From Nitrobacteraceae bacterium AZCC 2146 (GTDB taxonomy: Bacteria; Pseudomonadota; Alphaproteobacteria; Rhizobiales; Xanthobacteraceae), in contig JBAGRP010000001.1 in assembly GCA_036924855.1 (NCBI GenBank), positions 2,976,001-3,040,000 on the forward strand: DNA of 64,000 bases, written 5' to 3'. Shown here in pieces: positions 2,697-17,000 of this stretch; position 1 is the stretch's first letter; every line of letters begins with the position of its first letter. The notes below the pieces were generated by a model that saw only the letters and a list, made by a program, of their open reading frames with translations, was not told where the DNA came from and did no database searches. A program made the translations under genes and the position numbers.

Positions 2697-3149
2697 GTGT
2701 TCGACCCACGAACGGAACGGCGCCATGCGCGCGGTGCCGATCGACATCGTGCAGCACCGTCGGACGCAACCCCGTTGCCCGACAGCAAGGAGGCCGCGAC
2801 GCTGCGGGCATGGTTGCTGTCGCTGCTGCGCTTCGCGGTGACGCTCGAGACCACCGACAGGATCATGGTTCTGGCAGCGGCTACTGAACTCGACAGGGCG
2901 AACCGCGACAACGCCCGGGCATCCGCGTTCCGGTTTTTCACCCGCGCCAGCCTCCAGCTGTGCGACGCGATCACCGAGCCGGCCCTGCCGACCAGCCCGG
3001 CCGTCATTCAGGCCCATCTCGCCCGCATCGCCGACCCGCGCCTGCAGCGCGCCTTCGCCGCGGCACTCGATACCAAGCTCGAAAAGAAAAAACGCGCGAG
3101 CAAATGCCCCGCGAAAAGTGTCGATCTGTGGAAGGGGCTGGAGCGTTAG
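2697..3149 (+). CDS. Hypothetical alpha-helical protein, start uncertain
   Basis: An open frame of up to 150 codons. The first 30 residues (from a GTG at 2697) look like non-coding translation, but from LPDSKEAATLRAWLLSLLRF onward the protein is helical and well composed, with FFTRASLQLCDAI, IQAHLARIADPRLQRAFAAAL and a basic tail (KKKRASKC). The true start is not resolved and the N-terminus may be in another frame. No family is recognised. The gene ends about 140 bases before the left attachment repeat of the island, so it belongs to the host chromosome. Confidence 0.45.
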   Translation: MFDPRTERRHARGADRHRAAPSDATPLPDSKEAATLRAWLLSLLRFAVTLETTDRIMVLAAATELDRANRDNARASAFRFFTRASLQLCDAITEPALPTSPAVIQAHLARIADPRLQRAFAAALDTKLEKKKRASKCPAKSVDLWKGLER

Positions 3150-3287
3150 CGCAACTGCGATGCCTGGCGCCCGGTCAGCCCAGCGATGCCCAGTCCGATG
3201 GCTTGTCAGACTATTTCCAAAGACAGCGCGACCGGCGTAACCGACCGTTTTTGAAGCATTTGCGGGGATGATGAGGGATATCTTGAA

Positions 3288-3304
3288 TGGTACAGTTGGG
3301 TGGG
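3288..3304. repeat. Distal attachment repeat (att) of the tRNA-His island
   Basis: Seventeen bases identical to the 3' end of the tRNA-His gene at 12439-12455. Identity stops abruptly on both sides (TGAA/TACTG here against GGTG/CTCGA at the tRNA), as expected for recombination inside a short core. Confidence 0.88.
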
Positions 3305-3480
3305 TACTGCCAATGCCCAGCTTCAGCGTTGATAAATCTATCGAATTTGGCCGCCTATTGGTGTGGTTTGTAGCGCGATTTTGTATTCGGGGAAAGCCCG
3401 TCACCGCCGTCCGAGAGGTTTCTGCGTTTCGACCCAGTGTTGTGTATGCTGCAGACTGATTCCTTCAGCGAGCATTCACA

Positions 3481-5718
3481 ATGTCCTCTTCATGGGTCAC
3501 ATTCGAAGACAAGGTACGGGCTGTAGCCGAGTCAATTTGGAATAACGCCTGCAATCCCCAGAACATCGGTGGTGTTGACGTCGATGGCGTCATGATCCTG
3601 TCCCGAGACGCTCAGATTTTCATCGAGATGACGGTGCGCCGAGAACTGGACAAGGTTCGGGAAGACATCAACAAGTTACATCTCGCGCGGACCGCCTACC
3701 TGAGCTCCAATCAGTCCTATCCACGGTGCTATTGTGTCGTGAACGGCTCGATTACCCGGGCCATGAAGGACGCTGGAACCGCGCTTAACATCCAGGTCCT
3801 CTCATTTGACGGTTTTGCCAACATTTTCTTTGATTTCGAGAAATACTCGCACGCACGTTTAGCAATGGCCTTCGGAAGCGCCATCAATCCCCTAACCGGG
3901 GCCAGAGATGAAAGAGACTATGTTCCCGTCTCGTATCTGTCTGAAGACTACTCCAAGGATGTGACGCTCTCGGGAGTGGCAGACCTACTGAGGGACGGAC
4001 GAAAAGTCGTTTTGCTCGGCGAATACGGCACGGGGAAGAGCCGGTGTTCGCGAGAGCTCTTTTCGCTGCTCGCAAGCTCTGCAGCTTCTACAAACCTCTA
4101 CCCTTTCGCTTTGGACTTGAGAGATTTTTGGGGCCTGCGCCGCGCCCCAGAAATAATCAATCGACACATTAATGAGTTGGGGCTTGAACCGTCGCTCCAG
4201 ACTGCTGCTATCCGGGCTCTAAATGCCGACCGAGTGATCTTGCTTCTCGACGGATTCGACGAGCTCGGGTCGCAGGCATGGAGCGATGACAGCGAAAAGC
4301 TGCGGGCGATTCGCGCCAAGTCCTTGGAAGGCGTCAAGGAGCTGCTGTCCCGCAGCAAAAAGGGCGCGCTCATCTCAGGTCGTGAGCACTACTTCAACAA
4401 CAACGAAGAGATGTTCACTGCTTTGGGCTTGACAGCCTCTTCAACGGTAGTCGTCCGATGCAAGAACGAATTTACCGAAGAGGAAATGAAGGAGTTCTTC
4501 AAGCGTTATGTGACGGAAGAGCTCTTGATGCCTGATTGGCTTCCTCGTCGACCTCTGGTCTGCCAGACCATTGCCGACATGGAAGAAGATGATCTCGACC
4601 AGATGTTTGGGGTTGGGCAGGACGAACTCAGCTTCTTTGACCACTTCATAAGTGTACTATGCCAAAGAGACGCACGCATCAGCGCTTCGTTTGATGCCGC
4701 TACGATAGAACGCGTTCTTGGCAGGCTCGCGCGCCTAACCCGCAACCGGCCCGCAAACGTCGGCCCGATAACCCTTGGAGATGTCCAGAGCGCGTTCGAG
4801 TCGGTTGTAGGTCAGATGCCCGTCGACGAGGCATCGCTGATGTTGCAAAGACTTCCCGCGCTCGGTCGCGTCAAGTCCGAAACGAATGACCGACAGTTCA
4901 TCGACAGCTACATTCTTGACGGCCTGCGCGCGCGTGATTCGGGCGCTCTGTTCAAAATGGTCGACCGTTCCATGGAGGGTCTGTTTAGCACATCGTTCCT
5001 CAACCCACTTGATGAGTTGGGGCAGCGATTGCTGGCACGCGACATTGTTCCGCACCCCAAGAACGCGCTTGAGATTGCAAAGCGGGCGGCCGCTGGCTCC
5101 AACCGGGTGCTCGCTTGTGACATCGTCGCTGGCTTTCTTCAAACCGAAAACTCGCACGTGAATTTCGAAGGACTGGTCATTAACGATGGCAACTTCCTTA
5201 AACTGGACCTTCGAAAAGCAAGTCCTCAAAACCTCACTATCACCGATACGGCTTTCGGCACGCTGGTTTTGCCTTCTTCGGCACCTTACAACACACTGAT
5301 CAAAGACTCGGTCGCGGAACGCGTCGTGGGTGTTTCATCCCCAACGGCACTCCCCGCTTGGATTACCGGTTTTGAGGCGGACAAGTTCGACTCAACGGAT
5401 AGCATTTCGCGTATCCGACAAATCGGGCTTAAGGCCAACCACGCCATCTTGACAACCATCATTCGGAAAACGTTCTTTCAAAAGGGATCGGGGCGCAAAG
5501 AAGAAGCGCTTTTGCGAGGCTTGGGAGAAGTTGCTGACAAAGGGATGGCCCCCAAGATTGTCAACTATCTGCTGAGCCATGACGTGTTGACCAAATTCAA
5601 GGGGAACGAAGGTTGGGTATACGCGCCGAACAGGAAGCTCGCTGGCAGAATGCGCCAGATGCTGTATGAGCTTCAAACCAGCCAAGACCAGATTTGGAAT
5701 GATGTAGCGTCGCTGTAA
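3481..5718 (+). CDS. STAND NTPase: REase-like N-terminus plus NACHT-type NTPase, probable phage defence
   Basis: A 745-residue protein. Residues 1-120 look like a PD-(D/E)xK-related domain: D33 and D35 in GGVDVDG, then IFIEMT with E49, a basic helix (RRELDKVREDI), and strands CYCVVNG and IQVLSFD. The motif is E-x-T rather than E-x-K, so nuclease activity is not assured. Residues about 150-400 are a NACHT-type P-loop NTPase: Walker A GEYGTGKS at 180-187, Walker B ILLLDGFDE ending at 261, and a sensor-like segment GALISGRE. A helical region follows, then a short strand-rich segment (about 555-595) and a helical C-terminal tail. Bacterial NACHT/STAND proteins with effector N-termini sense phage and trigger self-directed damage; assigning that role here is inference. 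It stands alone, is the gene nearest the distal att repeat and has lower GC than the host. Confidence 0.8.
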   Translation: MSSSWVTFEDKVRAVAESIWNNACNPQNIGGVDVDGVMILSRDAQIFIEMTVRRELDKVREDINKLHLARTAYLSSNQSYPRCYCVVNGSITRAMKDAGTALNIQVLSFDGFANIFFDFEKYSHARLAMAFGSAINPLTGARDERDYVPVSYLSEDYSKDVTLSGVADLLRDGRKVVLLGEYGTGKSRCSRELFSLLASSAASTNLYPFALDLRDFWGLRRAPEIINRHINELGLEPSLQTAAIRALNADRVILLLDGFDELGSQAWSDDSEKLRAIRAKSLEGVKELLSRSKKGALISGREHYFNNNEEMFTALGLTASSTVVVRCKNEFTEEEMKEFFKRYVTEELLMPDWLPRRPLVCQTIADMEEDDLDQMFGVGQDELSFFDHFISVLCQRDARISASFDAATIERVLGRLARLTRNRPANVGPITLGDVQSAFESVVGQMPVDEASLMLQRLPALGRVKSETNDRQFIDSYILDGLRARDSGALFKMVDRSMEGLFSTSFLNPLDELGQRLLARDIVPHPKNALEIAKRAAAGSNRVLACDIVAGFLQTENSHVNFEGLVINDGNFLKLDLRKASPQNLTITDTAFGTLVLPSSAPYNTLIKDSVAERVVGVSSPTALPAWITGFEADKFDSTDSISRIRQIGLKANHAILTTIIRKTFFQKGSGRKEEALLRGLGEVADKGMAPKIVNYLLSHDVLTKFKGNEGWVYAPNRKLAGRMRQMLYELQTSQDQIWNDVASL

Positions 5719-5777
5719 AGGACCCTCTGGTCGCCTTCGGCTTTACCAAAGCTCACTTCGCAGTCGGCCGTTCCTTC

Positions 5778-5819
5778 TACGGTGAGCAAAGACGAGCCAC
5801 GCGCGCGTGGCCTACCGTA
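5778..5819. repeat. Nested palindrome downstream of the NACHT gene
   Basis: A perfect 16-base palindrome GCCACGCGCGCGTGGC at 5796-5811 lies inside an outer inverted pair TACGGT (5778-5783) and ACCGTA (5814-5819). It could terminate the NACHT transcript, although no T-run follows, or be a recombination or operator site for the serine recombinase 114 bases downstream. Confidence 0.6.
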
Positions 5820-5839
5820 ACTCCTCAAGTCATGCAAAA

Positions 5840-5858
5840 CGGAATCCCAGAGATTCCG
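5840..5858. repeat. Inverted repeat upstream of the serine recombinase
   Basis: CGGAATC and GATTCCG separated by five bases, 74 bases before the recombinase start. It is a candidate binding or crossover site, or part of the promoter region; the sequence alone does not decide. Confidence 0.45.
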
Positions 5859-5932
5859 AAACGTTGCTTTTCTTGTCAGCTGCGTTTGTTACAAATTGAT
5901 CTAACGTTCGTTGCGGCATTATGTAACACGGG

Positions 5933-6634
5933 ATGTCTATGGTGGCTGAGGGCAAATTCGTTTCTTACCTACGCGTGTCGACCGACAAGCAAGGGCGCAG
6001 TGGCCTCGGCCTTGAGGCGCAGCGGGAGGCGGTCTCTCGGTATCTCAACGGTGGCCGATGGAAACTGGTGGCCGAATACGTTGAGGTGGAAAGCGGCAAG
6101 CGCAACTCCCGCCCTCAGCTCCAAGCAGCGATCAGCCACGCCAAGGCGACGGGTGCGAAGCTGGTGATTGCCCGCCTCGACCGGCTTGCTCGCAACCTAC
6201 ACTTCGTCTCAAGCCTTCAGGAGCGCGGTGTTGACTTCGTCGCGGCTGACATGCCCGACGCCAACCGCCTCACCATCCACATCATCGCTGCCGTGGCCGA
6301 GGCCGTGGGCCGCACCATCTCTGAGAACACGAAGAATGCCCTGGCCGCCGCCAAGGCCCGGGGGGTGAAGCTGGGCAATCCCAACGGTGCCCGTGCTCTC
6401 CGTGGCAAGCAAACCGGCAATGCGGAAGCCGTGGCAGCGCTCAAGGAAGCCGCTACGCAGAAAGCCGCCGACCTCAAGGGTATCGTGGATGACATACGCC
6501 GCTCGGGCATTACCACGACACGGGGGATTGCCGATGAACTTCACGCGCGGGGCATCAGGGCTCCTCGGGGGGCCGTGTGGCACCCGACTGCGGTGTCGCG
6601 GCTGCTCGCCCGGCTCAACGTCCCCGCCAAGTGA
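5933..6634 (+). CDS. Serine site-specific recombinase (resolvase family)
   Basis: A 233-residue protein with the resolvase/invertase N-terminal domain. Catalytic Ser16 is in YLRVST, followed by GLGLEAQ, and the arginine motif RLDRLAR is at 81-87. The long helix region IAAVAEAVGRTISENTKNALAAAKARG leads into a short Recombinase-type DNA-binding region, ending with a helix-turn-helix-like segment (TTTRGIADELHARGI then HPTAVSRLLARL). Length fits small serine recombinases rather than the large phage integrases. The start could be ATG 5933 or the ATG two codons later. It lies inside a tyrosine-integrase island, so it may be a resolvase or DNA invertase of the element, or a remnant of a second element. 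Inverted repeats precede it. Confidence 0.9.
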   Translation: MSMVAEGKFVSYLRVSTDKQGRSGLGLEAQREAVSRYLNGGRWKLVAEYVEVESGKRNSRPQLQAAISHAKATGAKLVIARLDRLARNLHFVSSLQERGVDFVAADMPDANRLTIHIIAAVAEAVGRTISENTKNALAAAKARGVKLGNPNGARALRGKQTGNAEAVAALKEAATQKAADLKGIVDDIRRSGITTTRGIADELHARGIRAPRGAVWHPTAVSRLLARLNVPAK

Positions 6635-6659
6635 AACCGCTGTACAGGAGAGACCGACC

Positions 6660-6776
6660 ATGACGCCCGCAGCGCTCCTATCCGCCCTTGCGGCAGTTGC
6701 GATTTCGCTGGAGATGACTTTAACCGCTGCGGTGCTTGGCGCGGCAGCACTTTTGATCGCGGGGTATGGCGGGTAG
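6660..6776 (+). CDS. 38-residue hydrophobic membrane peptide
   Basis: A short gene 25 bases after the recombinase stop, with a good AGGAGA site seven bases before its ATG. The product (MTPAALLSALAAVAISLEM...) is almost wholly hydrophobic, with one or two membrane-spanning segments split by a single acidic residue and ending IAGYGG. It is too small to assign. Its position suggests co-transcription with the recombinase. Hydrophobic peptides of this size in mobile elements are often toxins or holin-like, but nothing here proves that. Confidence 0.5.
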   Translation: MTPAALLSALAAVAISLEMTLTAAVLGAAALLIAGYGG

Positions 6777-7130
6777 CGGCCCCTCCCGCGAAACCTTGAG
6801 GCTCCCTACGAATGAGCCTCTCCCACGACACCGGACCCTACTTTGCCCGCCCCCGGCCCCCCGGGCTTCAAATAGTTCCGGTTCAAGGGGCGGGCCGCCG
6901 CCTGACTTACTGCTGTGGTGTGCGCGCTGGAGCCTCAGATTTGAGCCTCATAGATCGGTCGCTGGAAACGCCGCGGCCCCCCGCCTCCCTTTGCACGCTC
7001 ACCTCCATTGATTTCGTTGAGTATTCCTGAAGGCATCAATGGGTTAGCTGGCGAACTACCGGAGTTACGTAGGAAAGGCACCGAGTTGCCTTTCGCTCAT
7101 CACCGCCGCCCACCGATCACAACACCACGA
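6777..7130. other. Intergenic island DNA without a clear gene
   Basis: A 350-base stretch with C-rich segments. A frame at 6812-7030 codes for 72 residues but is proline- and arginine-rich with no family likeness. A hairpin GAGGCTC / GAGCCTC (6798-6820) overlaps its start. I see no RNA gene. Confidence 0.4.
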
Positions 7131-7646
7131 ATGCCTGAACCCGAATCGATTCCCGACACCGCCCCTGACTTCAAGCAAGTCCGCTCCTACCTCCGCACCA
7201 TCCAACAACGTGAGGCCCTCGGTGGCTTCATGAGAGCGGGTTGGTCTCCCGTTGAACTCGCTGAATTCGCACGCCGGACCTGCCTCGTTCCCGGCAAGAC
7301 CCGCGCCGCCGCCGCGTCCTATCGATACGCAATCGAGAGAGGCGCCACCGATCCCTTCGCAGTGGAAACCTTGGCCATCCTGCGTGCTCTGCCGAATCGA
7401 CCGGAGGTACGCTCGGCGGTAAGCCAGCAGAGGCCTGAGGAAACCGATGCGCGCTTTGGGGAGGCTTGTGCTGAACACCAACAACACCTCAACCATGACA
7501 GCCACCCTGAAGGCTCAGGGGAATCCACTGATGCGTTTTTGGTAGCTGGTTGCTGGTTGGAGCACCAAGGCTCCCAAGTCGAATCCTTGGGGCTCTCTCT
7601 GGCCCCCAAAGGGGCACCATTTGAGCCCGCCGAGGCACTCACCTAA
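7131..7646 (+). CDS. Hypothetical island protein
   Basis: Up to 171 residues from an ATG at 7131 (MPEPESIPD); the frame stays open further upstream, so the start is uncertain and no good ribosome binding site is seen. Residues about 15-90 are helical and well composed (FKQVRSYLRTIQQREALGGF, WSPVELAEFARRTC, YRYAIERGATDPFAVETL). The last third is rich in E, H, G and S and probably disordered. I do not recognise a family. It precedes the helicase-like gene by about 190 bases and could belong to the replication or regulation part of the island. Confidence 0.45.
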   Translation: MPEPESIPDTAPDFKQVRSYLRTIQQREALGGFMRAGWSPVELAEFARRTCLVPGKTRAAAASYRYAIERGATDPFAVETLAILRALPNRPEVRSAVSQQRPEETDARFGEACAEHQQHLNHDSHPEGSGESTDAFLVAGCWLEHQGSQVESLGLSLAPKGAPFEPAEALT

Positions 7647-7833
7647 GAGCGGCCCCAGCTCGGTAATAAACAATACTCTACCTCTATGTGCATAAGCCGC
7701 CGACTTGCACGCAGTAGTTGGCACGGTCGCCCAGCGGCCCAATGTGCCATCCCGATCCCAACAATGGGGGGCCAACCTCTAAGAGATAATTCATTAGAGG
7801 GTTCACCCCCATTACTTCTCCGAAGCACCACTC

Positions 7834-9779
7834 ATGACAGACCACATCGGCTTGCACGAGCAATACGCCCTCGTGCCGCCGCAGACCTTTGTTGACAGGT
7901 TCACCCACCAGTGGACCAAAGAATTCGACATGCCCGCCAGTGAGCCCCTCAGGAAGCTCTGGCGCATCATGGCCAGCACCTACAATCAATCATCGACGCA
8001 GTTCAAGATAAACCAAGTCGCTGGCGTGTTCTCCAACCACCAACCGGCTCAGGCAAAACGATGGGAGCTGTGGTCTACTCAGGTCTCCAAGCCGAACTCA
8101 ATGCATCTGTAGCTGACGGTGTCCTGCCCGTAGGGCTTATGATCGTGACACGCCTCAAGGCTCAGGTTGATGAGGTTGTGTCTGACATCAACGCTTACGT
8201 TGGCCGACAGGTTGCCATCGCTGACCACACCGATCATCGGGCCACCGCAGAGCAGCTTCATGACAGCGACATCGTGGTTATTACGCATGAGGCTTACACC
8301 AGAGCGAAGAAGACCCTGTCTGGTGTCAAGGCCGAGCGGTGGAAAAAGCTAACGCATTGGCGCGGTGGGCAACGGCTCCTTACCATCGTAGACGAGGCGT
8401 TAGCGAATGTCGTTGAGCAGAGCCAAGTGAAGCTCGATGACCTCACGTTCCTCATCGGTCTCATTCCGCATGAACTGCGGCTGGCCCACGTCGCCGAGGT
8501 GGAAGCCTTGGAGGTGCTGCGGGAAAGCATGTTGGTTCAGGCCGGGATCAATGACGGCTTCGAGATTGGCACTTCGCTGGCATGGGTTGAGGGCGAGGCG
8601 CCCACTGCGGCCAACCTGACAGCCTTGAGAGCCGCCCTGCTCAAGCTGCCGTATGACAAGCAGATCGGCAAGGAGGATGAGAAGGAGCGCCAGCGTCTCG
8701 CCGGGCGCTATGACAAGGTGCTCGGTGCCGCAGAAGCGCTGCTGGATCAGTACGCCTTCATGGCGCGCACCGGCAATCAGCATTCGCTGAATTCGGCGGC
8801 GCTTGCGGTGCCTTTGGAGCTGCCGGGGCCGGTGGTGTTGGATGCCACCGCTGGCGTTGACCTGATGTACCAGCTCATGGAGGACCGCGCTGACATCATC
8901 CCGACGCCTCCCGGTGTTCGAGACTACAGCAACGTCACGCTCCATGTGGCTCGCGCCGCCAGCATCGGTAAGACCAAGATGGAGGAACTGGCCGCGACGC
9001 GGTTTCCACAGCTACAAGCGAATCTGGCTGAGCGATTATCACCAGACCGGAAGGTTCTGTTCTGCGTGCACAAGCGTGTGGAGCATCTGGTGCCTGCGCA
9101 AGCAGACCTTGGGGTCACCGAGGTAGCCTCGGCCCACTGGGGCGCAATCGACGGCAGCAATGCTTATAAGGACTTCGATACTGCCGTCATCTTCGGGCTT
9201 CCTTTCATGGATCACATTTGGGGGACAAACGTCTTCTTCTCCTTCCAAGGTGTCCGGGGTGACGATTGGCTCGACAATCCATCGTGGAAGGAGCACGCGA
9301 ATGTCCGAGAGCTGTTGCAGCGCAGGCATCTCGCCACCTCCATCATCCAAGCCATGGGCCGGGTGCGCCTTCGCAAAGTGGTCGACGCACAGGGGCGGTG
9401 CGCGCCTGCTGACGTGTTCATCGTATTGCCCAGCGGCGAACGCGGCACGGAGATACTTCGCTACATTCGCCAAGAGCTGCCGCACATCTCGGTAAAGGAC
9501 TGGGCGTTTGATCTGGATGGCCCCAAGGCACGCGTCAAACGCAGCGGGTTGCCTCACGGCCAATTGGTGACCTTCATGGCGAACCGAAACCCGGGCCGCA
9601 CGTACATGAACGTTATCAGCCGCGAGTTTGGCCTGAAGCCACACCAGCGTAAGGACCTTCAGAAGGCGCTACGTGATGAGAACCATGCCACCACCCTTGC
9701 GCTCAAGTCGCTGGGCGTCACGTATGGCTCCGAAGGCAATGGTAGGGGAGCAAAGAGCTACCTCGTGAAGGCGGCCTGA
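7834..9779 (+). pseudogene. SF2 helicase-like NTPase split by a -1 frameshift
   Basis: Two overlapping frames make one protein of about 648 residues. The start ATG at 7834 (MTDHIGLHEQYAL) reads 38 codons to GAG-CCC at 7942-7947. The rest lies in the -1 frame from 7947 (PQEALAHHGQHLQ...) to 9779. The second frame has no start codon before the methionine at 8061, which is inside the Walker A motif PTGSGKTM, so it cannot be an independent full gene. Helicase motifs are visible: P-loop, motif II-like TIVDEALAN, motif VI-like QAMGRVRLRK and a VFIVLPSGERG strand. The switch point is a run of four C (7945-7948); a fifth C would restore one frame. It may be a true mutation, a sequence error or programmed frameshifting. 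A role in island replication is inference. Confidence 0.75.
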
Positions 9780-9789
9780 TCAGCACTGG

Positions 9790-9825
9790 CCGCACCAAGG
9801 TTTCCATTCGGAGCCTCAGGTGCGG
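9790..9825 (+). terminator. Possible terminator after the helicase-like gene
   Basis: CCGCACC and GGTGCGG pair across a 22-base loop and are followed by the pyrimidine stretch TCTTCCTCTC. The loop is long and the T-run poor. The remaining 240 bases to the next gene show nothing else I can assign. Confidence 0.3.
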
Positions 9826-10020
9826 TCTTCCTCTCGCAACGTCCGCTTAAAAAGTCAAAGCCGGCGCAGGAATAGGTCCGCCGACGAGGCGCGATGGGCC
9901 ACCAGCGCAAACGGACGAGAGACAGGATCCACTCTTGCGCCCTCTCGGAGCCGAGGATAGCAATGGTTGAGCATGATTTTGAGCGATCAACTGCACTCAT
10001 TGTTTTTCGGGTGAACACTC

Positions 10021-10680
10021 ATGAAAGCGTACGTGCTCTTCTCGGTAGCAATAGCGACGCTAGTGCTCGCAAGTTGGAATGAATCATACGCTGAGTCGGT
10101 ATACTCGCCGGGCACAGGTGGAGCGTATCAACCCGGTACCGGCGGCGCTTACAAACCATCAACCGGTGGCGCGTATCAGCCGGGCACAGGGGGCGCGTAT
10201 CGGCCAGGCACAGGCGGTGCGTATCAACCGGGCACGGGCGGCGCGTATCAACCGGGCACGGGCGGCGCGTATCAACCGGGCACAGGCGGCGCGTATCAAC
10301 CGGGCACAGGCGGTGCGTATCAACCGGGCACGGGCGGCGCGTATCAACCGGGCACGGGCGGCGCGTATCAACCGGGCACAGGCGGCGCGTATCAACCGGG
10401 CACGGGCGGCGCGTATCAACCGGGCACAGGCGGCGCGTATCAACCGGGCACAGGCGGCGCGTATCAGCCCGGTATCTGCTGGACCGCAAACAAGGCCCCC
10501 ACCGATCGCTCGGCGCGTCAGGAAGCTCTGATTCTACCGGACCGTGACTCGCTCCGGCGTCAAACTGCGACTTCCCGAGCTACTCCTGCCTCGCCCGCTT
10601 CTCGTGCTTCAGCCGACGCGAACTCGCGAGCCCCCGAGCGGCCTTGCGCCATCATCGGGTCACCTTGGTGCCACGCGTAA
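10021..10680 (+). CDS. Exported repeat protein with 15 GGAYQPGT-type octapeptides
   Basis: A 219-residue product. Residues 1-24 (MKAYVLFSVAIATLVLASWN...) are a signal peptide with likely cleavage after SYA. Residues 33-152 are 15 tandem octapeptides of consensus GGAYQPGT, with only the first, second and fourth units showing substitutions (Q to K or R, G to S). The last 65 residues are unlike the repeats: basic, alanine-rich, with three cysteines. The repeats are nearly identical at the DNA level, so the array expanded recently. Such glycine-tyrosine-proline repeats form extended, flexible surface or matrix proteins in other systems; the role here is unknown. It is the last cargo gene before the convergent integrase. 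Confidence 0.65.
   Translation: MKAYVLFSVAIATLVLASWNESYAESVYSPGTGGAYQPGTGGAYKPSTGGAYQPGTGGAYRPGTGGAYQPGTGGAYQPGTGGAYQPGTGGAYQPGTGGAYQPGTGGAYQPGTGGAYQPGTGGAYQPGTGGAYQPGTGGAYQPGTGGAYQPGICWTANKAPTDRSARQEALILPDRDSLRRQTATSRATPASPASRASADANSRAPERPCAIIGSPWCHA
10117..10476 (+). repeat. Tandem array of 15 x 24-bp units
   Basis: Units follow the codon pattern GGC-GGC-GCG-TAT-CAA-CCG-GGC-ACA/ACG. The 11 units from 10213 onward differ almost only by synonymous changes at the third base of the last codon (ACA or ACG) and in one glycine or alanine position. This is a coding minisatellite prone to copy-number change. Confidence 0.95.
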
Positions 10681-10728
10681 TGCGCGCAGCAGGGGATGAG
10701 GTGCGGACACGCGGCCGTTGTTGAAAGT

Positions 10729-12354
10729 TCAATCCAGCTTGTATCTCGGGAATTTCGAGAGCGCGGCAGCCATAGCCGCAACGGATGGTGGTCCGTATTT
10801 CCTCCCCTCGGTGGCTTGCGTATGTCCCGTGATGGCGTCGTTCATCTTCTCCGGCATCCCAATCTCATCGGCAATGCGCTTGAACGTGTGACGCCAAGCG
10901 TGGTTCGGGCTGATGTGAGGATCATCGACACCCAACCCACGAACCCACGTCCCCAGATGAGCGCGCGCCGTGTCAGCCCGAGGTCGCGGGGGCTTCAACG
11001 GATCTGCACTGGGCCGTTGCGGTGTCGTATCATTGTAGAACAGCGCGCCCTTCCCAACCTGCTTGACCATCTCAATGAAGCCTTGAGCGATCAGGTGTTC
11101 GTGGATGGGCAAAACACGCGGCTTCCCTGTCTTGATCGTGCCGGCCTCGGGCGTCAGCTTCATTACGTAGAGGCCCTTACGGTCCTCGACGTCGATCCCG
11201 CGCAACTGCGTGATTTCGCCCGGTCTTGCGCCAGAATACGCACAGAGCCAAGGCACCCAGCGGCGTGTTCTCTCTGTGGGCGTGATAGGCTTCTCAAAGG
11301 CCAAGCTGGCGTTGAGAATGATCTTTGCCTCAGCGTCTGTGAAACTCCGGCCTTCTTCTCGTGTCTGGGCCTTGCGCGGAACGTCGACGCGCACTTCCTT
11401 GAACGGATTTTGCCTAACGTGCTTGTGCTCGCGCGCCCAACCGAACACACGACGGGCGGAGGACAACCAGACCTCGCGAACGGTTATTGCCTGACGTTCT
11501 TCATTGATGAGCCCCCGTATCCACGCGCGGGCGGCGTCCTCCGTTATCCCATTTGCCCCGACCTCAGCAAACTCGCGTTGCATCTCAAGGAAAACGGAGC
11601 GCCATCTGGTCACCGTCTTGTCGGCGGGCTTGACCGCAAGAACGAAGGCTTCGAACAATTCCCAGCAGCTCGCGCCCGAAGCTCGCACGGGACCATCAGT
11701 GAACTCTGGGAAAGTGTCCGGGGTATCGTCAAGGGAGTAATCGCCGTTGGCGCGCCGTTCAAGCAACGTTATGGCGGGCAAGAGATTGTCGCTAACAGCA
11801 TCGACAAAGAGCGCATAGGCAGTGGCATTCAGCGTTTTACCCTCGCTGGCAAGAAATGTTGCCACACGCGCCAACTCGGCAACCTGCGGCCTCACTGCTT
11901 CCCGAACCTGGGGCTCCTTTTGCCATTCCCAGTGAGGATCGGCCTTGGGATTCTCGTGGTAGCTTTCGGGCGCCTCGGGGTAGATCACGTTCCACACGAG
12001 GTGTTCGCTCATCTCGTGCCAACGCTTGGCTGAGCCGGGGTCGTTCTCATGCTGCCCGACGAACCAAGTGTACCACCGGCCAGCTAATGCGATTGCGTTG
12101 AGCTTGGTGAGCGGTTGGCCGTCTCCGTTACTCTGAGCACGCAACGTGGCGATGCGCGTTTCGACGTCGGCTATCCATTCCGCGCACCGCGTCTTTGCCT
12201 CGTGGTGCGGGGTGTCCTTTGGCAGCCTCAGATGGGCTTCCCTACGAACGCCAAAGAGCCGAGCGTATGGGTCGCGTATGTCTGCTGGGATGCCCTTGCG
12301 GGCGAACCAACTACCGTCTTTTGCTCGAACTAACGCGACCATCCGCAATGCCAT
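10729..12354 (-). CDS. Tyrosine site-specific recombinase (island integrase)
   Basis: About 541 residues from ATG 12354 (MALRMVALVRAKDGSWFARK); the ATG four codons later is an alternative. The N-terminal 60 residues form an arm-binding-like region (GSWFARKGIPADIRDPYARLFG), then a core-binding SAM-like domain around WELFEAFVLAVKPADKTVTRW. The C-terminal catalytic domain shows the tyrosine recombinase set: Arg in YSGARPGEI, His and Arg in HAWRHTF, the histidine of GHTQ and the tyrosine nucleophile in RKYGPP. It is transcribed away from the tRNA-His gene and its start is 84 bases from the tRNA 3' end, the normal arrangement for an element that integrates there. It presumably catalyses integration and excision at the 17-bp core. 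Confidence 0.93.
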   Translation of the reverse strand: MALRMVALVRAKDGSWFARKGIPADIRDPYARLFGVRREAHLRLPKDTPHHEAKTRCAEWIADVETRIATLRAQSNGDGQPLTKLNAIALAGRWYTWFVGQHENDPGSAKRWHEMSEHLVWNVIYPEAPESYHENPKADPHWEWQKEPQVREAVRPQVAELARVATFLASEGKTLNATAYALFVDAVSDNLLPAITLLERRANGDYSLDDTPDTFPEFTDGPVRASGASCWELFEAFVLAVKPADKTVTRWRSVFLEMQREFAEVGANGITEDAARAWIRGLINEERQAITVREVWLSSARRVFGWAREHKHVRQNPFKEVRVDVPRKAQTREEGRSFTDAEAKIILNASLAFEKPITPTERTRRWVPWLCAYSGARPGEITQLRGIDVEDRKGLYVMKLTPEAGTIKTGKPRVLPIHEHLIAQGFIEMVKQVGKGALFYNDTTPQRPSADPLKPPRPRADTARAHLGTWVRGLGVDDPHISPNHAWRHTFKRIADEIGMPEKMNDAITGHTQATEGRKYGPPSVAAMAAALSKFPRYKLD

Positions 12355-12438
12355 TTGTATGCGCCTTTTGTATTTAGCGCGGGCAAATACGTCAGGTCTA
12401 TCAGTAGGTTGCTGAAACCACAGGGGATTTTTTTGGTG

Positions 12439-12455
12439 TGGTACAGTTGGGTGGG
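12439..12455. repeat. tRNA-proximal attachment repeat (att) of the island
   Basis: The 3' terminal 17 bases of tRNA-His (CCCACCCAACTGTACCA read on the minus strand), identical to 3288-3304. Integration leaves the tRNA intact. Confidence 0.88.
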
Positions 12456-12515
12456 CTCGAACCACCGACCTCCTGTTCCACAGACAGGCGCTCTAACCAA
12501 CTGAGCTACAACTGC
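12439..12515 (-). tRNA. tRNA-His (anticodon GTG)
   Basis: A full cloverleaf can be folded: acceptor GCAGTTG with CAACTGT, D-arm in TAGCTCAGTTGGTTAGAGC, anticodon stem CCTGT/ACAGG around loop CTGTGGA (anticodon GTG), T-arm GGTGG-TTCGAGC-CCACC, discriminator A73 and encoded CCA. The base before G1 is T, so there is no encoded G-1. A73 without G-1 is the known alphaproteobacterial form of tRNA-His. The 3' end serves as the island attachment site. Confidence 0.96.
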
Positions 12516-12627
12516 ATCCTTGATCGGCCCCGGCGAGGGGGCGCGAACGGGCGGGAAACTAGGTGCAACGCACCTCTTTGGCAAGGCCGCGCAGGCGCCC
12601 AAAACCACGATTGTCGGGCCTAAAACG

Positions 12628-12654
12628 AAAGCCCGGGCTGGTAGCCCGGGCTTT
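12628..12654 (-). terminator. Intrinsic terminator of the first phasin gene
   Basis: A perfect 12-bp stem (AAAGCCCGGGCT / AGCCCGGGCTTT) with a three-base loop, followed on the minus strand by CGTTTTA. It lies 25 bases after the phasin stop codon. Confidence 0.85.
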
Positions 12655-12679
12655 CGGCAGTCTTAAAGGCTCAATCCGC

Positions 12680-13114
12680 TCAGGCGGCGGGCTTGAACAG
12701 TTTTGCGGCACCAGTCTTGATCGGCTCGGCGGTATCGGAGGCGATCTTCTGGGTCAGCTCGGCGAGCTCCTTGGTCTGGCCGGTGAAGGCCTCAACCTGC
12801 TTGCGCACGAACGCGGTCCACAGCTCCATCGCCACCGACGGCGATTTCACGCTGACCAGCTCCTGGGCGAAATCGAGCGTTGCACCGGTGTTGGTCTTCA
12901 CGATGTCGAGCAGCTTGGTGGAATATTCGGTGACGCCCTTGGTGGCGCTGCCGAACACGGCTTCCACAGTGCTGTTGTGCGTCTCGGCGGCGTCCTTGAA
13001 CTTGGCGTAGCCCTCGCGGGCCTGCGACACGCCCTTTTCGGCGAACGCGCGGACCTGCTCGGGGACCTGGAAGGGAATGACGGAAGCTGAGAACGGATCG
13101 GTCGATTCGGCCAT
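12680..13114 (-). CDS. Phasin family protein (PHB granule-associated)
   Basis: A 144-residue helical protein starting at MAESTDPFSA; AAGGA lies eight bases before this ATG, too close to serve the ATG three codons upstream. It has the Phasin_2 pattern: an N-terminal FQVPEQVRAFAEKGVSQAREGYAKF, then ETHNSTVEAVFGSATKGVTEY, LDFAQELVSVKS and a closing KELAELTQKIASDTAEPIKTG. Phasins coat polyhydroxybutyrate granules and set their size and number; they also affect stress tolerance. A second phasin gene follows upstream on the same strand with its own promoter region. The tail ends KLFKPAA. No catalytic function is expected. Confidence 0.88.
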   Translation of the reverse strand: MAESTDPFSASVIPFQVPEQVRAFAEKGVSQAREGYAKFKDAAETHNSTVEAVFGSATKGVTEYSTKLLDIVKTNTGATLDFAQELVSVKSPSVAMELWTAFVRKQVEAFTGQTKELAELTQKIASDTAEPIKTGAAKLFKPAA

Positions 13115-13260
13115 AACGTGCATCCTTCATGTTGCGGTGAACAAGGTATAACCCGCGGCTACCGTCGAAAGCGTCGCTGCTTGCGGTCGGAAGACGGGAG
13201 GTCACGAACGCCCCGTTGAAGAGGCGTTGGACATGTCTAACGTAATATCATGTCAAATTT

Positions 13261-13271
13261 TTGCAATGCAA
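13261..13271. promoter_or_regulatory. Candidate PhaR/AniA-type operator upstream of the phasin
   Basis: TTGCAATGCAA is an inverted repeat of TTGCA and TGCAA around one base, located about 150 bases before the phasin start in an A+T-rich intergenic region that also holds a second half-site (ATTGCAT at 13278-13284). PhaR regulators of phasin genes bind TGC/GCA-type inverted repeats in other alphaproteobacteria; assignment here is by resemblance only. Confidence 0.35.
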
Positions 13272-13363
13272 CAGAATATTGCATCGCGAACTTGCTTGCA
13301 GGCCGAACAGAATACACGTTTCGGTCAACAAGATTAATTTTTTGCAACTTTCGATAGGCCAAT

Positions 13364-13735
13364 TCAGCTCTTCGGCTTGGCGGCGTCCATTGCGGCTCGG
13401 CTCATGATCTGGCCCATTTCGCTGGCCTGTTCGGCCAGGGCCTTCATCTGGCTCTGCACATATTCGCTGTGCAGCCGCATCACGTCGCCGAGGTCTTTTG
13501 CGTGCAGCAACTGCTGGGCGTAATCCAGCGACGCCGCCACGTTCTTTTCGGCAAAAGTGATGGCCTTGGCGCTGATATCCTTGGCGCCGGCACGCACCGT
13601 AGCACCGCGGTCCTCCATCGAAGAGGCGGTGGTCTGCGCGCTGGCCAGAAACTTCTCGAATGCCTGGCGGGCCTGCTCGAAGCTGGCTTCAGCCATCGAT
13701 CGCATCTCTTTCGGAATCTCGAACTTGTCGCTCAT
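13364..13735 (-). CDS. Second phasin family protein
   Basis: A 123-residue helical protein beginning MSDKFEIPKEMRSMAEAS, with AAGGGAGTGG ahead of the ATG. It keeps the phasin layout: IPKEMRSMAEASFEQARQAFEKF, a central helix, ITFAEKNVAASLDYAQQLLHAKD and SEYVQSQMKALAEQASEMGQ. It differs enough from the neighbouring phasin to be an old paralogue rather than a recent copy. The pair is expected to act at the surface of polyhydroxyalkanoate granules. The 250 bases between the two genes suggest separate promoters. Confidence 0.87.
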   Translation of the reverse strand: MSDKFEIPKEMRSMAEASFEQARQAFEKFLASAQTTASSMEDRGATVRAGAKDISAKAITFAEKNVAASLDYAQQLLHAKDLGDVMRLHSEYVQSQMKALAEQASEMGQIMSRAAMDAAKPKS

Positions 13736-14086
13736 GTCCCACTCCCTTGCGTTAACGGAGCCATCCACAGCTCCGATTGCCCATCACCCGTTGCAATCTA
13801 ACGAAGCCAGACATCGCCAATGTGACGCGGCATCCCTTCCCCGTCGATCCCATCGTGGACGTTTGTTCTGGTTTTGCAACTCTTCAACGCGAGGGCTGAC
13901 CAATGGTTCGGCAGACCAGCCGGAATTAACGGTAATCCCGCTTTGGCCTGTGCGAAACCCCTGACAACATGGACCTGCGAGCCCCCGCGCGCGATACTAA
14001 CGAAGTGTTAAGGCTGTCATCGTTTGGACGGCAATCTGTGCCCTCCTCACCCAGAGAGTGACAAACCGGTAAGTCATGAAGTGCCG
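13736..14086. promoter_or_regulatory. Divergent intergenic region between phasin and histidine kinase
   Basis: About 350 bases expected to hold the promoters of both genes. It includes isolated TTAA-containing words (GAATTAACGG near 13923, GTGTTAAGG near 14005), but no full TTAA-N7-TTAA CtrA site. No gene or hairpin stands out. Confidence 0.35.
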
Positions 14087-17000
14087 ATGAACAGTGCGGA
14101 ATTCCAGTTGCGGGGCGTCGAAGATGCCAGGCTGGCCGTGCACGCCACCAGCAACCAGCCGGCCTGGTTGTGGTCGCTGGATGGCACGCGGATCCTGTGG
14201 GCCAATCCGGTCAGCGCCAAGCTGTTCGGCGCGCGCAATGCCGCAGCCCTGTTCGCCAAGACCTTCGGTCCCGCCGATCAACATCGCCGCCAAATAGCGC
14301 AGCTGGGCAGCCGGCTGCCGCCGAACGCCACGGCCCGGCTGGAGCGCTTGCGCGGTTTTGGCGCGGCGCTCGGCAGCCTGATGACCTGCGCCTGCACCAG
14401 GCTGGAATTTCCCGATGGCGGTGCCGGCATTCTGGTGGTCGCGGTCGAGCCGACCGGCCGCTTCATGCCGCTGGTGGAGCGGCTGCAAAATCTGGTCGAA
14501 GGCATCGACACGCCGATCGCGGCCTTTGCGCGCGACGGCCTGTTCATCGGCGCCAGCGAAGCCGCCCGCGCCCTGCTCGGCTTTCGCAATCTGTCCGACG
14601 CCGGCCTCGATGCCGCGCGCAGCAACGCGCTGAAGGACGGCCGCGTCGAAACCCCGATCGGCTTCGGCCACATGGTGCTGCAGCGGGTCGGCAGCGGCGC
14701 CGATGTCGGCCTGGTCGCGCTGATCGCACCCGGCGCGGTGCACGCCGCCCTGCGCAAGCATCAGGCGGATGAAACTGTTGAGCCGCCGCACGAGATTCAC
14801 GCGACTGACGAGGCGGCGCCGGCGGTTACCGAACCGCCGGTCGAACTCGCAGATGTGGTCGAGGTCGATCCCGCGCTGGCGCCGTCCGAACTGATCGAGC
14901 ATGCCGCCGAAGTCGAGCGCCTGCCCGAAGAAGAAGTTGTGGCCGAGCATCACGAGACTGCGCCGCTCGATGAGCCGGTCGCGCAAGATGTCGAACACAT
15001 CGCCGAGCAGGTCGAGCCCGAGACAACGTCACAGCTCGAAGCCGCGATTGCCGAGACCATCGCACAGGCCGAGACGCCCTACGAGACGCAGGAGCACGAG
15101 CCTTCGCCTTACGTCGAAGCTGTCGCCGATGAACCAGCTCCCCTCGCCCCAGCACCGCTTGAGCCCCGCACCTCCCCGCTGCGCTTCACGTGGCAGATCG
15201 ATGCCGATGGCCATTTCGTGCTCGGCTCCGACGAATTCACCAAACTGATCGGCGCCCGCACCGCGGCGGCCTTCGGCCGCAAGTGGAACGACATCGCCGC
15301 GGAATTCGAACTCGATCCCGATGGTCGCGTCGTCAAGGCGATGGCGACGCATCAGACCTGGAGCGGCATCACGCTGCTGTGGCCGGTGGACGGCGGCGGT
15401 CGATTGCCGGTCGAATTGTCCGGCCTGCCGCTGTTCGATCGCGAACGCCATTTCGCCGGCTATCGCGGTTTTGGCATCTGCCGGGATCTCGACGGCATGG
15501 CGCGGCTCGCCGAACTACGCCGCCATGAAATCATCAGCGACCCGCCACCGAGGTCGCTGTCCGCCGATATCGCCCAGGCCGGGCCGGTCGGCGACAGGCT
15601 CGACGATCCACTCGCACCCACCACCGAACCCGCACCTGAACCACCACCAACCGAGCCGGACAGCACCGTGGAACCTCCCAAGAACGTCGTGCCGTTTCGA
15701 CCGGGTGATCAGAAATCGCCGGTGCTGACGCCCGTCGAGAACAGCGCCTTCAACGAGTTGGCACGGCAATTGTCGCAGCGGCTGGAGGCCGAAACCGGCC
15801 TCACCACCGATCAGCGCGAGCCGCAGCCGGTGCAGGTCGAGGAGCCGGAAGTCATGCCCGAGCAGATCGCTTCTCCGGAAATGATCCCGGCGTCAGGCAC
15901 GCAACCCGCTTGGCTGGCGACACCACCGGCGCCGGCGCGCGGCGAGATGCTGCGCGACAAGACGCTGCTCGATCTGCTGCCGGTCGGCGTGCTGATCTAC
16001 CGGCTCGACCGCCTGCTGTTCGCCAATCCGGCGTTCCTCGCCCGCATGAACTATCCGACCCTGCAGGCGCTGGAAGAAGCCGGCGGCCTCGACGCGCTCT
16101 ATGTCGAACCCGACGTTTCCTCGACATCAAGCACGTCGGACGGCGGCACCGCGGTGACGATTTCGGCGACCGAAAAATCCGGCGACGCCGCGGCACGGGC
16201 GCCGACCGAGGCGCGGCTGTTCTCCATCGCCTGGGATAATGAACCGGCCCACGCGTTGATCTTTTCCAGTTCACGCGCCGAGCCCGCTGTCGAGCCTGCC
16301 GCCGTCGCCGCTCCCGCCATGACAGCGGACGAGCCGTTGCCGGCTGGTGCTATCGATGGCGAAGAGCTGGCCGCGATCCTCGACACCACCGCCGAGGGCG
16401 TCATCATGTTCGACGCCGAGGGCAACATCAATTCCTGCAACCGCAGCGCCGAGGCGCTGTTCGGCTATAATGGCGAGCAGCTGACGCAGCGCAATGTCAC
16501 CGATCTGTTCGCGCCGGAAAGCCGCCGCGTGGTGCGCGACTATCTCGACAGCATCAAGGAGGCCGGCGTCGCCAGCCTGCTCGATCACGGCCGCGAGGCG
16601 CTCGGCCAGGCCCGCGCCGGCGGTCTGATTCCGCTGTCGATGATGATGGGCCGCACCCGGCCCGATGGCCCGAATTTCTTCGCCGTGTTCCGCGATCTCA
16701 CCCAGGCCAAGAAGACCGAGAGCGAGTTGCTGCATGCGCGGCGGCAGGCCGATCGTGCCGCCACCGCGAAAGCCGACGTGCTGGCGCGGATCAGCCACGA
16801 GGTTCGCACGCCACTCAACGCCATCATCGGCTTTGCCGAAGTGATGATCGACCAGCGCTTCGGCCCGCTCGGCAACGAGCGCTATGTCGAATACATGAAG
16901 GACATCCGCGCCTCCGGCGAGCGCGTCATCGCCATCGTCAACGACCTGCTGGATCTGTCGCGGATCGAGACCGGCAAGCTCGATCTCGCCTTCACCACGC

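Follow-up and report, generated by a model that had tools for sequence, protein, structure and literature searches.

Results

The window analysed here is a stretch of 64,000 nucleotides from Nitrobacteraceae bacterium AZCC 2146 (contig JBAGRP010000001.1, positions 2,976,001 to 3,040,000). Near its left end an intact open reading frame on the forward strand (3481-5718) encodes a STAND/NACHT protein of 745 residues. A protein search that scored 7995 candidates returned 518 relatives at E≤1e-3, of which the best 120 were used. Most of these 120 (103) were 725-770 residues long and aligned over their full length, with invariant positions throughout; the 518 relatives together with these invariant positions rule out a chance reading frame. 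Conservation was calculated from an alignment of 145 non-identical sequences, made up of 114 of the best 120 relatives (at least 690 amino acids) and 31 locus proteins (at least 640 amino acids). A few of the locus proteins differ from one of the best 120 relatives at the N-terminus only, so that the 145 sequences are partly non-independent. The member at locus L020, which is split over two frames, dropped out of this alignment.

No PADLOC profile matched the 745-residue protein at E≤1, and no family of NCBIfam, PADLOC or PHROG covered it with a score above cut-off. DS8_antiphage and EruA were considered as names for the protein and rejected, their E values being only about 0.04. Residues 162-283 matched phrog_18297, a family without a function, at 1.2e-6. 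A sequence search against solved structures gave nothing useful for the N-terminus, the whole family or the C-terminus, and a promoter scan of positions 3200-6000 revealed no sigma-70-like site, the sigma-70 model not being informative for this host. Among titles and the opening lines of abstracts we found no paper on the family and no functional data on any member; the founding bNACHT paper, reportedly that of Kibby et al. 2023, lies outside that scope, and the family may be among its tables.

The surroundings of the gene were resolved by a 17-bp direct repeat, TGGTACAGTTGGGTGGG, present at 3288-3304 and 12439-12455. The right-hand copy belongs to an intact tRNA-His gene (GTG anticodon; 12439-12515, reverse strand; identified by ARAGORN and, at 71.2 bits, by Rfam), the integration target, whose last 17 nucleotides including CCA are reproduced in the distal copy. 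A search of the window and a further 60 kb leftward found this single repeat partner for the tRNA 3' end. The distal copy ends 176 bp upstream of the start codon of the NACHT gene, which confirms the proposal of the initial annotation that the gene lies beside an att site. Downstream of the NACHT gene, and within the repeats, follow a serine recombinase (5933-6634, forward; Pfam Resolvase, 3e-29), a 212-residue reading frame with no Pfam family at E≤1 (7008-7646, forward), a gene called helicase-like by eye (7834-9779, forward) that is split over two frames (7834-8112 and 8061-9779), and a tyrosine integrase (10729-12354, reverse) that abuts the tRNA-His gene. The integrase matched a PHROG integrase at 3.1e-22 and Pfam Phage_integrase at 4.3e-4, below the cut-off; its reading frame opens at 12465, and the start near 12354 is a guess by eye. 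The longer helicase-like frame (8061-9779) matched no Pfam family at E≤1, and a Walker-A-like stretch lies near the break. The element, with its broken helicase-like gene, may be decaying. The interval that separates the helicase-like gene from the integrase has a reading frame (10021-10680) with 15 tandem P(G/S)TGGA units.

At locus L118, window positions 3147-3303 are joined to positions 12439-14500 with a 16-bp overlap within one copy of the repeat, and L118 therefore has an empty site. The element interior had no match at E≤1e-5 in any of 19 loci from 17 genomes of the same genus, 4 of these loci also being without a match to the left flank. The integrase beside the tRNA gene, the att repeat and the empty site show that the NACHT gene is cargo of a tRNA-targeting integrative element of about 9.15 kb. 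The gene had been described as standing alone and as low in GC. The former does not hold in this element, which it shares with the serine recombinase, the split helicase-like gene and the integrase, although no partner is conserved across loci (see below). The latter is correct in relative terms, since the gene has 54.0% GC (63.4% at third codon positions) as compared with 58.7% for the element and 63.9% for the window to the right of the tRNA gene.

Related elements were recognised elsewhere. In L013, from a Sphingomonas assembly, the same layout occurs at a tRNA-Thr gene, with the NACHT gene at the far end, a serine recombinase, an integrase and a 17-bp tRNA-end repeat. Five stretches that carry relatives of the integrase (L074-L078) have them adjoining tRNA-His (two), tRNA-Leu (one) or tRNA-Pro (two); tRNA-end repeats were found in three of the five (L075, L077 and L078) and none was found in L074 or L076. 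The small elements that could be delimited are those in the window (3288-12455), L013 (9182-19088), L077 (5101-17947), L075 (6794-12239) and L078 (7545-9889). In all five the att repeat is the last 17 nucleotides of the tRNA with CCA (in L075 a 20-bp repeat that includes those 17), and three of them (window, L013 and L077) have a related serine recombinase. What is left in L078 (7545-9949), in a different genome of the family, is a remnant with a fragmented integrase, lying at the tRNA-His site that is also used here. The related element in L075 includes a reverse-transcriptase gene (9693-10481) resembling retron-type models (3e-18), possibly a further defence gene.

In other hosts the NACHT gene occurs as a lone gene, a prophage gene or a plasmid gene. 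Across 30 loci, two of which (L028 and L029) are nearly alike, there was no conserved operon partner: no gene beyond the family itself was common to more than 5 loci, and the largest shared cluster outside the family, a UmuD-like phage gene, was found in 5 of the 30. At L025 (Mesorhizobium) the gene lies in a 2581-bp stretch (9664-12244) that is absent from L115, beside what by eye is a malic enzyme gene. Within this insertion are 113 bp that partly duplicate the end of the malic enzyme gene, and there is no integrase; ten other genomes of its genus held no second copy of the stretch, only scattered matches of 26-53 bp. The lack of a conserved partner and this one-gene insertion bear out the earlier description of the gene as a single-gene unit. 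At L010 and L021 the gene follows uvrA, as judged by eye. Family members were also found in a phage, Pseudomonas phage Haddon (25% identity), on a plasmid of Erwinia (40% identity) and on 7 viral contigs, of which two are near-identical in the region surrounding the gene. The distribution of the gene is sparse. None of 17 sampled genomes of the same genus carried it; it was present in 3 of 101 genomes of relatives and in 6 of 289 genomes of the class, both counts including its own genome and one weak partial match, and in 4 of 398 genomes of the phylum at E≤1e-20, its own included.

The initial annotation had called the protein a NACHT-type STAND ATPase with an N-terminal domain like that of restriction endonucleases, and both assignments are supported. 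Pfam NACHT scored 36.0 bits over residues 175-290, where the cut-off is 26.7, and 42 of the 43 family members that were scanned matched it at E≤0.05. Walker A (GEYGTGKS, residues 180-187; 4018-4041, forward) and Walker B (DGFDE, residues 257-261; 4249-4263, forward) are where they had been placed, and K186, D257 and E261 are present in all 145 sequences. In a full-length model (pLDDT 84.9), residues 118-562 resemble NLRC4 and NLRP3 by fold search, and the NACHT with the helical domains that follow it is thus predicted to have an NLR-like fold. By Foldseek the full model is closest to NLRC4, NAIP5, NLRP3 and NOD2, with Avs4 at rank 8; whole-chain TM-scores are low (0.22-0.31 over the first eight matches), and Avs4 is a whole-chain match only (TM 0.22/0.12). 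The viral structure library returned one phage protein named after NLRs (5.2e-11), its other named matches being mostly AAA-type ATPases. The models place effector, NACHT and C-terminal part in that order, an arrangement in which sensing would fall to the C-terminus.

The effector domain (residues 1-120; 3481-3840, forward) is predicted to be PD-(D/E)XK-like. Residues 1-135 folded alone (pLDDT 89.7) gave a restriction-endonuclease-like fold of this type, nearest to Cdn1, EndoMS, Can2 and Card1. Fold matches were mostly nucleases of the PD-(D/E)XK superfamily, only two of them reaching an E value of 0.001 in Foldseek, and viral cap-snatching RNA endonucleases were among them. The proposed layout of D-x-D (residues 33-35) followed by E49-x-T51 is present, and its second aspartate, D35, is conserved in 139 of the 140 sequences with a letter at that column; D33, in contrast, is aspartate in 52 of 145 and does not belong to the conserved pattern. 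E49 is found in 142 of 143 sequences. At position 51, 134 of the 145 sequences have T, 10 have S and one has A, and the canonical motif-III lysine, expected two residues after the second acid, is absent from every one. At the start of the next helix, K58 is present in 143 of 145 (T in L014 and N in L072), accompanied by R60 (140/145), D62 (139/145) and K or R at position 65 (144/145). The Haddon relative, despite 25% identity overall, retains the D, ExT, K and R. The domain thus has the two acidic active-site residues of PD-(D/E)XK enzymes, D35 and E49, and not the canonical lysine, and for that reason we assign it to the fold with a variant site and not to the canonical members. One sequence stands apart: in L014 (Sphingomonas; 10001-12238) E49, T51 and K58 have been lost, although the Walker A lysine and the NACHT motifs are intact. 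This is a natural active-site loss, and nuclease activity is therefore not retained everywhere in the family. The accessible part of one report describes DUF1626, in which motif III often has Thr and the lysine has probably moved to the following helix (PMC1913061), and migration of active-site residues has been described for PD-(D/E)XK nucleases in general, again in the part accessible (PMC1189080). From the sequence pattern, we take D35, E49, T51 and K58 to form an active variant site that is probably catalytic.

The strand-rich C-terminal segment of the initial annotation is visible in the full-length model, whose secondary structure has strands over residues 559-636 and then a winged-helix-like end. 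Of six regions compared, the beta-rich segment (residues 556-640; 5146-5400, forward) is the least conserved, with 34% mean pairwise identity over the 145 sequences, and the end (residues 641-745; 5401-5715, forward) shares the highest conservation, 53%, with the linker. The reading of residues 641-745 as a winged helix is a prediction from the secondary structure of the model; similarity to BlaI-type repressors was weak (E 0.19, and 0.038 in one of 43 members). Solely because the variable segment contrasts with the conserved end, we guess that residues 556-640 could form the sensor face. Pentapeptide_4, found in one of 43 members at 0.025, was too weak to be accepted.

We also looked at what lies near family members. 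Within 6 kb of the gene in 20 loci, some of which stop at contig ends, there were 159 reading frames of at least 150 amino acids; 132 were scanned against PADLOC and 27 were left out by size. Considering the best 25 of 89 and the best 25 of 53 matched families, restriction or SIR2-HerA genes were near the family in 4 of the 20 loci among the matches listed: type I M and R genes (L018), a type III methylase and nuclease (L021), a type II/IIG pair with SIR2 and HerA (L016), and a 644-residue gene like a type I restriction subunit (L008). Several further PADLOC matches were set aside by eye as housekeeping look-alikes, namely mad3/mad8 on UvrA (L010) and on an ABC ATPase (L014), RTasPolA on PolA (L017), DpdF and others on a DEAD-box-type helicase (L007), and PDC-S33 on a stringent-response-type protein (L011).

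The same restriction or SIR2-HerA families were found by PADLOC in none of 27 control regions. One control set had 12 regions with 101 reading frames (13 of 20 requested regions were obtained and one was dropped because of a single giant reading frame), lying near contig starts; its other hits were Pycsar-cyclase-like (2.8e-17), QatA (3.5e-13), TIR-like (1.1e-10) and mad models. The other had 15 mid-genome regions with 135 reading frames, cut at a residue limit, and gave RtcR (2.1e-112), PDC-S31 (1.1e-41), an HTH model (2.9e-13), RmrA (1.7e-10) and mad models. For 4/20, among the matches listed, against 0/27, a one-sided Fisher test gave p 0.027, or 0.070 with L008 dropped, where the controls are small and the restriction/SIR2-HerA criterion was fixed after the hits were seen. 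Three control hits are ambiguous (PDC-S31, Pycsar-cyclase-like and TIR-like), and with one, two or three control regions counted as defence, p becomes 0.095, 0.20 or 0.33. The enrichment in defence islands by which the initial annotation would have its defence call judged is therefore seen in the plain comparison and fades once ambiguous control hits are counted; the excess lends weak support to a defence role.

Discussion

We infer that the protein is probably an NLR-like antiphage system encoded by one gene. In the resting state, it would be kept inactive by its NACHT module. Upon phage infection the C-terminal part, most plausibly the beta segment at residues 556-640, would detect either a product of the phage or a disturbance of some host process, and nucleotide-driven oligomerisation through the NLRC4-like core, as expected from the family, would bring the N-terminal nuclease domains together. 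These domains, whose fold is predicted and whose key residues are conserved, may then cut DNA by means of D35, E49 and K58, with T51 in place of the motif lysine, and the cell would stop growing or die ahead of phage release. The gene itself travels as cargo of a small integrase-driven tRNA-His element, and in other hosts as a lone, prophage or plasmid gene.

We think it unlikely that the endonuclease fold spares DNA, cleaving RNA or binding nucleic acid as a sensor while signalling or killing proceeds by other means. Such a role would accommodate the lack of the motif-III lysine in all 145 sequences, the loss of E49, T51 and K58 in L014, the viral cap-snatching RNA endonucleases among the fold matches and a conserved C-terminal winged helix that, if the model is right, could bind nucleic acid. 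However, D35, E49 and K58 are near-invariant elsewhere, which binding alone rarely demands, and a motif-III Thr with a moved lysine is a variant already described for predicted nucleases, according to the accessible part of PMC1913061.

The remaining alternatives concern what the protein is for. Its occurrence between apparent housekeeping genes with no element evident (uvrA at L010 and L021 and malic enzyme at L025, by eye) makes it quite unlikely that the protein guards its mobile element or excludes competitors such as plasmids and rival integrative elements, protecting against phage only incidentally, even though the gene lies at the far end of its integrative element here and is also found on viral contigs, a phage and a plasmid, and even though a related element has left a remnant at this tRNA-His site in another genome. 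A regulatory STAND ATPase that serves the host in, for instance, DNA repair or transcription, and not in immunity, might be suspected from the weak likeness of the C-terminal winged helix to BlaI-type repressors and from the two copies that follow uvrA; the sporadic distribution (6 of 289 genomes of the class, a count that takes in its own and one weak partial match), the mobile carriers and the lack of a conserved partner make this very improbable.

Returning to the antiphage reading, a more specific version can be put forward tentatively, although we consider the balance to be against it. The family may form a distinct, unnamed subfamily of bacterial NLRs with a nuclease that has its catalytic lysine on the helix and no longer on the strand. 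It would sense through the fast-changing beta segment, would be held or armed by an unusually conserved BlaI-like winged helix recognising either DNA or an invariable host partner, and would spread as the smallest immune unit, down to one gene plus a piece of its target gene.

If the antiphage reading is true, a family with 518 relatives (E≤1e-3, one search) joins the bacterial counterparts of the inflammasome receptors. The protein would then be a compact single-chain model, in 745 residues, for sensing, nucleotide switching and nuclease firing together, one for which the closest solved structures are animal NLRs. The variable beta segment set against the conserved end also gives a testable prediction of the part that reads the phage.

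Comparison with known systems

Animal NLRs have a CARD or PYD effector and a leucine-rich repeat. The closest of them by fold (NLRC4, NAIP5, NLRP3 and NOD2) show 13-14% identity in the top two matches of the fold search, and they differ in that the model of this protein has neither a CARD/PYD effector nor a leucine-rich repeat. Avs/AVAST proteins share the STAND ATPase, Avs4 being at rank 8 of the fold matches to the full model, and several Avs/AVAST types have a nuclease-type effector. However, the Avs4 chain has 1534 amino acids against 745 here, and PADLOC gave no match at E≤1. Cdn1, Can2, Card1 and EndoMS, the nearest folds to the effector domain, either come with a fused sensor domain for cyclic oligoadenylates or serve in mismatch repair, whereas here the nuclease fold is joined to a NACHT and has T or S for the motif lysine in 144 of 145 sequences. 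With the predicted nucleases DUF1626 and DUF790 the active-site variant alone is in common, a likeness by description in the accessible part of the source (PMC1913061).

Other bacterial systems come nearer in architecture, as far as the accessible parts of their reports describe them. P4-like satellites have STAND proteins with the N-terminal nuclease domains Mrr_cat and BpuSI_N (PMC9122126), DS-8 joins a NACHT to a metallophosphatase (PMC13092281), and LypABC of Caulobacter is a CARD-NLR-like system for the release of gene transfer agents (PMC13236601). The most similar in layout are bNACHT25 and bNACHT32 (clade 6), which share with this protein, by description, a PD-(D/E)XK-fold N-terminus and a central NACHT in one chain. 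They are described as antiphage proteins with an N-terminal PD-(D/E)XK DNase, a NACHT and an NCH1 C-terminus; their defence is lost with the nuclease mutation D48A, and DNA is degraded upon infection (PMC12169576). The C-termini differ by the same comparison, NCH1 being helical and the present protein having a predicted beta segment and winged helix; NCH1 had no Pfam match here at E≤1, in a library that may not contain an NCH1 model. Since bNACHT25 and bNACHT32 already join both domains and defend against phage, the nuclease-NACHT pairing is, on the accessible part of that report, already known as antiphage, and the suggestion of the initial annotation that the pairing might define an uncharacterised subfamily is not supported. 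A subfamily may still be defined by the active-site variant and by the C-terminus. What is new here is the Lys-to-Thr active site together with a C-terminus that combines a variable beta segment, as modelled, with a conserved predicted winged helix.
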